From Kordiimonas laminariae (GTDB lineage: Bacteria; Pseudomonadota; Alphaproteobacteria; Sphingomonadales; Kordiimonadaceae), in assembly GCF_023008165.1 (NCBI RefSeq), contig NZ_JAKQZA010000002.1, positions 310,001-374,000 of the forward strand: a DNA stretch of 64,000 bases, given 5' to 3'. Each line of letters begins with the position of its first letter. The stretch's first letter is position 1. Below are positions 1 to 37,162 of this stretch, one piece after another. The position numbers and the translations under genes were made by a program. Under the pieces are notes generated by a model. That model was not told the origin of the DNA and searched no databases. It was given only the letters and a program-made list of their open reading frames with translations.

Positions 1-73
1 GCTCGAATGCTTCCTTTGATCCGGCTTGCGCCTTCAATACCAATAATTCTTCTTTTGTGCGTGTACCTGTCAC
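1..73 (-). CDS. Probable ECF-type sigma factor, N-terminal fragment (runs off the left edge)
   Basis: Only about 24 codons are visible, reading leftwards from a GTG at 73. The predicted start is VTGTRTKEELLVLKAQAGSK followed by EAFE. The pattern E-E-L-x-x-L-x-x-A-Q-A-G-x-x-x-A-F-E is typical of the first helix of sigma-70 region 2 in ECF sigma factors. An AGGAG ribosome binding site at 85..81 lies 7 nt before the GTG, which fixes the start well. The leader and first codons hold striking nested inverted repeats (see the repeat entry). The family call rests on one short helix, so another protein opening with a similar helix is possible. Confidence 0.5.
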   Translation of the reverse strand, partial: MTGTRTKEELLVLKAQAGSKEAFE

Positions 74-12551: not shown

Positions 12552-14464
<1,913 letters not shown>

Positions 14465-14514: not shown

Positions 14515-14548
14515 ATAAAAAAGCGCCTCGCTTGGGAGAACGAGACGC
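14515..14548 (-). terminator. Terminator downstream of the 47-residue gene and its structured tail
   Basis: The stem GCG-CTCG/CGAG-CGC with one mismatch is followed by U residues on the minus strand. It lies about 200 bp past the stop of the small gene at 14752 and 50 bp before rnhB, so the transcript of the small gene has a long 3' tail. Confidence 0.7.
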
Positions 14549-14751
14549 CAGGGTTAGGGTAGTTAGTTTGGGAAAAACAGAGCTTCTGGGAAAAGCTCTA
14601 CAACTCTATACTAAAAGAGTATTTGGCCGGACCGCGTGCTGTCTTAGGGCTAATGTTCAGGGGTATTATTTAAACATCACCGGGCCGGCCTTGCCGAAGG
14701 ATTAAGTTCTTTCAGGGAACAAAGGAGCAAGTAATCCAACGGCCAAATTCT
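14549..14751 (-). other. Structured non-coding stretch, possible 3' UTR or small RNA
   Basis: These 203 bp have no convincing reading frame on either strand but hold several hairpins. They include GAGCTT/AAGCTC with a 7-nt loop (about 14580-14598), ACTCT/AGAGT (about 14603-14620), GGCCGG/CCGGCC enclosing an ATGTT/AACAT stem (about 14624-14690), and GGATTA/TAATCC with an internal GTTC/GAAC (about 14699-14737). A terminator ends the region on the minus strand. A processed or independent small RNA is possible; I cannot match it to a known family. Confidence 0.3.
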
Positions 14752-14895
14752 TTATGCCGCCAGGAGATTACCCCCGTTAGCACGCTGAGCGCGACGCATA
14801 CGGCGGCCTACACGTGTAGATGCAATTGGCCTGAAAACATCGCTATTTAGGGGAGCCTGGCGCTGGCCAGTTTTTTGCAAGATGCTTGTAAACAT
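14752..14895 (-). CDS. Small arginine-rich protein of 47 residues, unknown function
   Basis: This short gene starts at ATG 14895 with GAGGA 7 to 8 nt upstream. It encodes a protein opening MFTSILQKTGQRQAPLNSD and containing the basic stretch RVGRRMRRAQRANGG before an L-L-A-A end. The second half is strongly basic, suggesting binding to nucleic acid or acidic phospholipid. No signal peptide or membrane helix is visible. A TTGACA about 145 bp upstream on the same strand may belong to its promoter. A structured tail and a terminator follow. I do not recognise the family. The case rests on ribosome binding site, codon quality and transcript layout. Confidence 0.55.
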   Translation of the reverse strand: MFTSILQKTGQRQAPLNSDVFRPIASTRVGRRMRRAQRANGGNLLAA

Positions 14896-15088
14896 TTTTC
14901 TATCCTCGTTAGCGCCCTTATGGGCATTCTTAACTTTATTGCTTTGCTGTCATGTAGCTTGCGTAGTTCTATTTTTTTCAGTGAACTATCGTTCTCGCTA
15001 CACCCTTAATTTAGGTAAGTTTGTCAAAAGGTTCAATAGCACCCATCTCATTTTCTGCACGCTTTACCGCAAACGATGAAATAATTCT
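14896..15088 (-). other. Intergenic region upstream of the small basic gene
   Basis: No gene is supported here. On the minus strand there is a perfect -35-like TTGACA near 15027 without a convincing -10 at the right distance. A small GCCC-ATAA-GGGC hairpin lies just before the ribosome binding site of the 47-residue gene (about 14911-14922). A plus-strand frame from 14882 has no ribosome binding site and is rejected. Confidence 0.4.
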
Positions 15089-15120: not shown

Positions 15121-15126
15121 CAATCT

Positions 15127-15366
15127 TCAATCGTCTTTAAGCAGACCGTATATCTCATCCTTGAGCAACATCCTGCGTTTTCTTAAATCCTCCTCATCAA
15201 GGCTTGAAAGATGGTCCTCCCCAATCTCGGCTCGGTGGATTTGGCGGTTAATGGTGTGATATTCCTCTGAGATACGGTGAAAATGTGCATCCGACACTTT
15301 CAGCTCATGAATACGATCAACAAACTCCGGGAACTCTTCTCTCAACTCGTGTGGTGTATGGCTCAT
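15127..15366 (-). CDS. YdcH/DUF465 family protein
   Basis: This small soluble helical protein of 79 residues has the DUF465 pattern. It opens M-S-H-x-P-x-E-L, then has E-F-P-E-F-V-D-R-I-H-E-L-K and D-A-H-F-H-R-I-S-E-E-Y-H-x-I-N-R-x-I-H-R, and ends with D-L-R-K-R-R-M-L-L-K-D-E-I-Y. The predicted structure is an antiparallel helical hairpin. The function of the family is unknown. AGGAG lies 8 nt upstream of the start. A terminator follows directly, and a divergent paralogue lies just upstream on the same strand. Confidence 0.85.
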   Translation of the reverse strand: MSHTPHELREEFPEFVDRIHELKVSDAHFHRISEEYHTINRQIHRAEIGEDHLSSLDEEDLRKRRMLLKDEIYGLLKDD

Positions 15367-15484: not shown

Positions 15485-15706
15485 CTATGCAACTTCTACT
15501 ATCTGACAAATTCGATTACGTAACCAAACGCGTTCCCGTTTCAGATCGATACTAGAAAACAAACATTCAGGATGCTCCAGCGTTTCGCCGATAGTTTCAT
15601 ATGCTTTAAGCAAACGTGTAATTTCATGGTTCGTAGAAGCAAGCTCCTCCAGCTTATGCTGTGCTCCAAAACACTCTTCTACAAGATCCGATGGTATATG
15701 ACTCAT
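15485..15706 (-). CDS. Divergent DUF465-like paralogue
   Basis: The 73-residue protein starts at ATG 15706, with GGAGG 5 nt upstream. It lines up along its length with the neighbouring DUF465 protein: both open M-S-H-x-P-x-x-L-x-E-E, and both end with S-S-[IL]-D-x-x-x-x-R-x-x-L-[RK]-x-x-I. It has two cysteines near the middle and end that the neighbour lacks, and it is less charged. The separate terminators suggest independent transcripts after a local duplication. The function is unknown. Confidence 0.7.
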   Translation of the reverse strand: MSHIPSDLVEECFGAQHKLEELASTNHEITRLLKAYETIGETLEHPECLFSSIDLKRERVWLRNRICQIVEVA

Positions 15707-15793
15707 AACTACCTCCAATTCGTGCATCTATAAACATACCCTCCTGAAGAATGCCCGCATTGACATTGATCAAACTACTTTAGGGGCTTACCC

Positions 15794-36934: not shown

Positions 36935-37121
36935 GGATGAATGCCTCCTCTGTCACGGAACCTGAGAGATTTGACCTCGATATCAAGGCTTACCCCGTCG
37001 GTGAGGAACAAATGCTCCTGCTTTCCAGAGTGTCACTATTCGCGCGGTCCTTTTGCCTGAGAGTTTCCGAGGCGGTTGCTCCTTCGGCGTCAGCATGTTG
37101 GCTGAGCTCTCCCGCACGAAC
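36935..37121 (-). ncRNA. Tandem glycine riboswitch of the gcv operon
   Basis: Two glycine aptamers lie in series on the minus strand. The first (about 37121-37040) has CGGGAGAGC, GCCGAAGGAGCAA and CTCTCAGGCAAAAGGACCG. The second (about 37030-36937) has TCTGGAAAGC, GACGGGGTAAGCC, AATCTCTCAGGT and a closing CAGAGG. The short linker is typical. The downstream platform has a small CCGG-TTATA-CCGG stem but no strong terminator, and the gcvT ribosome binding site GGAGAGT can pair with ACTCTC of aptamer I. Translational ON control by glycine is therefore a reasonable inference. Confidence 0.93.
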
Positions 37122-37162
37122 ATTGTAAAAGTTACCTTTTACCTGACGTGATCGTGGGCAGG

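Follow-up and report, generated by a model that had tools for sequence, protein, structure and literature searches.

In Rhodobacter sphaeroides, the small RNAs CcsR1-4 originate in the 3' UTR of the gene for a small RNA-binding DUF1127 protein that aids their maturation, and the parts of the reports cited here describe the protein of this locus, CIN1, as helping RNase E processing (PMC10253847, PMC8625941). In Caulobacter, the C-rich loop of GsrN is reported to pair with a G-tract in katG mRNA (PMC5869019). For NfeR1, a C-rich sRNA that is independent of Hfq, the cited portion of its authors' report leaves the chaperone as an open question (PMC10746234). Within a 64,000-nt stretch of the 3.65-Mb genome of Kordiimonas laminariae (here called the window), we analyzed a locus that almost certainly comprises a protein gene and a conserved structured 3' RNA on one transcript. 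A search of the open-licence full-text literature on Kordiimonas small RNAs, on small proteins of the Kordiimonadaceae or Kordiimonadales, and on arginine-rich small proteins found no description of this gene.

The small open reading frame (ORF) lies on the reverse strand at 14895 to 14752, with its ATG at 14895, its last coding base at 14755, and its stop codon at 14754 to 14752. It is preceded by a GAGGA Shine-Dalgarno sequence at 14907 to 14903 and encodes a basic protein of 47 amino acids (MFT...RRMRRAQR) containing eight arginines and one lysine. When 59 relatives were searched at the DNA level, whole-length similarity was found only in G013, a genome near-identical to the window, and this gave an early impression of no conservation that protein and synteny searches overturned. 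An ORF with the conserved Shine-Dalgarno sequence and MFT start is present in 25 of 29 family genomes, a count built from a profile of nine members, a start-context pattern, and direct reading of 27 stretches. Divergent candidates stand in place of the standard form in G002, G019, G025, and G026, the last two of which have two candidates each. Protein length across the family ranges from 37 to 51 amino acids, and M1, F2, T3, and four arginines are invariant among 23 aligned members. Reading 1.5 kb in 29 loci revealed 10 positional homologs upstream of rnhB, the window and its near-twin counted.

A profile of the 23 members matched 27 of the 29 family genomes at an E value of 0.1, weak matches counted, and yielded no convincing match outside the family among 289 genomes of the class, where six nonfamily genomes reached an E value of 0.001 through partial Arg-rich matches. 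In a named collection, the start-region pattern matched 16 times, with about 11 matches roughly expected by chance; 9 matches were unrelated and 7 were alphaproteobacterial, the latter including Kordiimonas marina, an uncultured Kordiimonas, and Pseudokordiimonas caeni.

The original prediction of a small protein gene is borne out by these counts and by selection on the coding sequence. The dN/dS ratio of the small ORF was 0.11 to 0.36 in 12 of 13 intended pairs, G001/G012 having been omitted for unequal length. Over all pairs, differences at third codon positions numbered 8139, compared to 5850 and 4588 at the other positions. Frameshifts, which the prediction had named as evidence against the gene, were absent among the aligned relatives. 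By the usual selection criterion, and as judged from sequence, the small ORF is a real translated gene.

Searches of the small protein against Pfam, NCBIfam, and PDB sequences returned nothing relevant. None of 23 family members matched DUF1127 of Pfam at E values up to 5, and no DUF1127 match was found among the members in NCBIfam. The AlphaFold2 model of the 47-residue protein is weak as a whole (mean pLDDT, 67.9; pTM, 0.31) and contains an isolated Arg-rich helix toward the C terminus at residues 27 to 41, within which residues 31 to 40 have a mean pLDDT of 87. As modeled, this helix would fit an RNA-binding role.

A promoter-like site, TTGAAC-17-TAAATT, is located upstream of the ORF on the same strand at 15036 to 15008 (hexamers at 15036 to 15031 and 15013 to 15008) and is conserved in relatives. 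Of 25 family loci, 24 have the pattern TTG[AT]A-16..19-TANRT ahead of the small ORF, G024 being the one that lacks it, and [CT]GACAG occurs no more than 140 nt upstream in 23 of the 25; both counts exclude G034 and a small ORF beside a GntR gene in G023 (G023b). In the window this motif lies at 14952 to 14946, within a predicted 5' leader of about 105 nt (15001 to 14896) whose span is set from the promoter position. In the leader alignment, DNA conservation is highest between the ribosome binding site and the start codon. Since a terminator-like site at 15121 to 15098 closes the upstream gene and the promoter-like site follows it, the small gene appears to form its own transcription unit of about 490 nt. 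Its transcript is expected to begin near 15001 and end at 14515, beyond the ORF-plus-tail span first proposed, and we infer that the ORF and tail are cotranscribed.

Upstream of the small gene lie DUF465-type genes and rmuC, as identified with Pfam. Two adjacent short ORFs on the reverse strand, at 15485 to 15727 and 15127 to 15366, form one BLAST cluster; of the two, the second has a DUF465 match in Pfam and the first does not. Downstream is rnhB, followed by a methylase gene with the Pfam domains N6_N4_Mtase and RAMA, which we take to be CcrM-like. The rnhB and methylase genes overlap by 4 nt (13799 to 13802), provided that the methylase does begin at its listed TTG. Elsewhere in the window, a glycine riboswitch aptamer was found on the reverse strand at 37035 to 37124 (71.7 bits).

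The tail that follows the ORF, also on the reverse strand, folds into four hairpins and an intrinsic terminator. P1 (14743 to 14693) and P2 (14690 to 14625), the latter with a C-rich apical loop at 14671 to 14645, were found in the window fold and as covarying helices in relatives. P3 (14620 to 14603), whose sequence is not conserved, and P4 (14600 to 14578), with the loop CCC, appear in the window fold and in individual folds of relatives. The terminator occupies 14549 to 14515, with a hairpin at 14549 to 14522 whose loop contains CUCCC and then a U-run. Because the scan of 3.5 kb gave 7 terminator-like sites where 3.6 were expected, this match is weak by itself, and its support comes from conservation in the relatives' folds. 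The minimum free energy of the 237-nt tail was -70.8 kcal/mol, versus -54.4 ± 4.1 kcal/mol for dinucleotide shuffles (z, -4.03), and none of 200 shuffles was as stable. Across 20 of the 25 family tails, the mean z was -5.4 (range, -3.2 to -7.9), with 20 of 20 far below their shuffles; this set leaves out the near-identical G013 as well as G017, G020, G022, and G024, for which scripting located no terminator. Tail ends were taken from the individual folds, that of G014 being set by eye. Searches of Rfam at the gathering threshold found nothing at the locus, where the best subthreshold hit reached 19.1 bits against a threshold of 46 (E values up to 5), and gave no matches in any of the stretches from relatives that were submitted, 20 of 27.

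Plain alignment fails for the tails of some genomes, which are too divergent. The alignments drop G013 (near-identical), G024 (which has no promoter, loop motif, or similar tail), and G034, and covariation was assessed in the 15 best-aligning of 23 sequences, all of which aligned well and to which the following counts refer. RNAalifold returned a consensus of two long stems, P1 and P2. With this structure fixed, 91.5% of 445 cells were paired, and 15 of 30 pairs had changed on both sides (9 of 13 in P1 and 6 of 17 in P2). None of 500 shuffles reached the observed value in any of five measures. When the structure was slid by one column, pairing fell to 46 to 51% and the covariation score fell from 0.379 to about 0.11, part of this excess being expected, since the fixed structure was derived from the same sequences.

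A covariance model, R1, built without the window, provided a check independent of the fixed-structure count. At an E value of 0.01 or better, R1 matched five loci outside the model, namely, the window (30 bits), G013 (33.6 bits), G020 (56 bits), G027 (54.8 bits), and G023 (22.8 bits), and every one of these matches lies directly 3' of the small ORF. The window match spans 14758 to 14625 and has a low score and a variant loop. In 192 genomes of the order, searched with stricter filters that missed the window's own genome, R1 matched 17 genomes once each, all of them Kordiimonadaceae and all at the small gene. At an E value of 0.01, the tails of G008, G021, G022, G024, and G028 were not matched though the ORF is present; the loop motif C[CT]TAG[CT]CC occurs in all of these except G024. 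On this comparative evidence, the tail is under selection as RNA structure. The original prediction had placed the ORF and tail at 14515 to 14895, and these coordinates were right; the ORF, start context, fold, and loop are conserved across the family, more than chance would give. The succession of hairpins and then a terminator that it described is seen in the folds of the window and relatives, with the terminator end assigned at 20 of 25 loci, and a covariance model from relatives' tails, the test it had proposed, recovers the window tail beside the ORF.

Among the unpaired stretches of the tail, conservation is highest in the C-rich P2 loop, which reads CCCCUGACCCUAGCCCC in most relatives and ACCCCUGAACAUUAGCCCUA in the window. 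Of 25 tails, 22 contain C[CT]TAG[CT]CC, with a variant of it in the window and G013, and CTCCC and CCTCC occur in 15 and 13 of the 25, respectively. Among unpaired bases in 20 tails, the fraction of C was 0.28 to 0.49 and that of G was 0.03 to 0.11, and no tail contained an unpaired GGG. Compared to dinucleotide shuffles, unpaired CCC was in clear excess in G008, G010, G023, and G027 (equaled by at most 1 of 60 shuffles) and not in most others. Because the excess is clear in some genomes only, the C-richness of the tail is partly a matter of base composition.

The explanation that we prefer overall, at a nearly even chance of being right, is a free-standing Kordiimonadaceae unit that makes two products from one RNA. 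The corresponding mechanism, with a basic RNA-binding protein and a C-rich-loop sRNA in the 3' UTR as for CcaF1-CcsR, is put forward tentatively, by analogy, as having somewhat less than an even chance. The 3' part of the transcript would be released, or would act where it lies, and would regulate other mRNAs by base pairing of its C-rich loops with G-rich segments in them. The Arg-rich protein would bind RNA, most likely its own tail, and might help the processing, stability, or pairing of that tail, a role like that of CcaF1 toward the CcsR RNAs. A base-pairing role is suited to an RNA with variable stems and conserved C-rich loops.

Target searches gave no corresponding signal. The loop complement GGGGYTAGGG occurred near ATG codons 47 times in 19 genomes, compared to 36 times for the reversed control, which is no enrichment; the 47 include three matches antisense of the gene itself and some that overlap. 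Duplex energies of five window loop segments were slightly better with 57 start regions than with 285 interior windows, but reversed loops behaved alike; of the five loop segments, that of P2 had the least start-region preference. The earlier suggestion of a dual-function RNA or 3'-UTR-derived sRNA thus stands in part, favored by purifying selection on the ORF and covariation in the tail and unsupported by the loop-target searches.

A more specific proposal, which we regard as rather doubtful, is a one-RNA ribonucleoprotein. Here the MFT-family microprotein would bind hairpins in the 3' UTR of its own transcript, and the C-rich loop would guide it to G-rich mRNA sites with no general chaperone, while a sister microprotein family, with the same leader and located upstream of a GntR-ABC operon, would exist in the same genomes. 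If true, a single 490-nt transcript would supply a protein-plus-guide pair.

Other readings assign the tail no role in trans. The Arg-rich peptide might recognize its own P1 and P2 in cis and thereby control its own transcript at the level of decay, translation, or termination. Phage N peptides recognize boxB, and the small protein may resemble N-peptide motifs; the isolated helix at residues 27 to 41 of the AlphaFold2 model agrees with such binding, as does the finding that the ORF and structured tail are always adjacent and conserved together. However, conservation within P2 peaks in an unpaired C-rich loop and not in a stem or bulge motif, which better suits base pairing, and model confidence is low outside the helix. 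We consider cis recognition rather unlikely. That the transcript is an ordinary mRNA for a ribosome- or nucleoid-associated small basic protein, with hairpins that only guard against 3' exonucleases, is unlikely. Such an mRNA would account for purifying selection on the protein, and structured 3' UTRs are common, but one stable hairpin is enough for protection, whereas here the loop sequence is kept while the stems drift with compensation.

The position of the unit, directly upstream of rnhB and in the same direction in the window and several relatives, is what a leader peptide and attenuator for rnhB and ccrM would call for, and two other families also have small basic ORFs ahead of rnhB. The terminator, however, lies about 200 nt past the stop codon, and no conserved antiterminator was seen. 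An opposite-strand gene (328 to 376 amino acids) separates the unit from rnhB in 11 of 25 loci, and the small gene occupies another neighborhood in G020 and G027, rnhB of G020 being on a different contig. Because of these arrangements, attenuation of rnhB is very improbable. A chance ORF followed by chance hairpins in an intergenic region might be suspected from the restriction of whole-length DNA similarity to one near-identical genome and from the weakness of the terminator scan alone, but all of the conservation results are against it, and dN/dS together with covariation refutes it, leaving it next to no probability.

The leader has a distribution wider than that of the small gene. In the 29 family genomes, ACGACAG followed by a Shine-Dalgarno sequence and ATG matched 69 times, compared to 12 times for the reversed pattern. 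Such leaders precede ordinary genes too and so are not specific to microproteins, and several stand before small Arg-rich ORFs of a second family, which lie just upstream of a GntR regulator gene in several family genomes. An example is contig 25 of the window's own genome, G000 (L289:1365-1496, reverse strand), where a 43-amino-acid Arg-rich ORF with an ACGACAG-hairpin-Shine-Dalgarno leader is followed by a GntR regulator gene and then the gene for an ABC transporter ATPase. Families f2 (G036, G042, and G047) and f7 (G034 and G040) also have small basic ORFs with an MFS, MFT, or MYT start within about 600 nt on the upstream side of rnhB, and some of these ORFs carry GACAG motifs and C-rich terminator loops. 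Profile support for them is uneven, with shuffles scoring as high in 0 of 200 cases for G042, G047, and G040, 5 of 200 for G036, and 159 of 200 for G034. These ORFs are candidate homologs, not proven ones. With the same filter, a small basic ORF close to rnhB was found in 0 of 16 loci of family f8.

The unit brings together, in a single gene, a protein family and an RNA family that are both absent from the profile libraries searched. If the Rhodobacter model applies, the pairing of a microprotein with a C-rich-loop sRNA would have arisen more than once in the Alphaproteobacteria with unrelated proteins, and if it arose repeatedly, the pairing itself would be the thing selected. A protein encoded in cis would also be a testable kind of answer to the chaperone question raised by NfeR1-type sRNAs.

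Like the uORF-controlled DUF1127 gene of Sinorhizobium meliloti, as presented in the excerpt cited, the Kordiimonas unit joins an Arg-rich small protein to RNA-based control in an alphaproteobacterium; there the uORF attenuates the DUF1127 gene (PMC12218461), whereas here the conserved RNA follows the ORF, and profiles show no relation of its protein to DUF1127. Like GsrN, the unit has a family-restricted RNA in which conservation is highest at a C-rich loop, but the Kordiimonas unit has a small ORF, none being reported for GsrN in the cited part of that work (PMC5869019), and our loop-complement search found no target. The rhizobial sRNAs alpha-r14/NfeR1 and SmelA075 likewise have several hairpins with variable stems and C-rich unpaired loops, while the cited sections report no coding part, in contrast to the ORF present here (PMC10746234, PMC3927594). 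According to the same sections, alpha-r14 and cuckoo RNAs have at least three hairpins with the identical aSD loop CCUCCUCCC, whereas the Kordiimonas loops differ from one another and lack it (PMC10746234, PMC3927594).

The closest likeness is to ccaF1-CcsR1-4 (CIN1 locus, cuckoo RNAs), which in the portions of the reports cited also consists of a small basic protein gene and, downstream on one transcript, hairpin sRNAs and a Rho-independent terminator, the whole unit having its own promoter (PMC10253847, PMC8625941). Unlike its counterpart, the Kordiimonas protein is not DUF1127 by any profile, CCUCCUCCC occurs in 0 of 25 Kordiimonas tails, and the tail has a single large hairpin, P2, whose C-rich motif differs, in place of the repeated CcsR modules described there (PMC10253847, PMC8625941). 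The CIN1 promoter is described as RpoHI/RpoHII dependent (PMC10253847, PMC8625941); the Kordiimonas unit has a conserved promoter-like TTGAA-17-TAMATT. Since the protein family and the loop motif both differ, the Kordiimonas unit is not a member of CIN1, and, by analogy, it most likely works like the CcaF1-CcsR locus.
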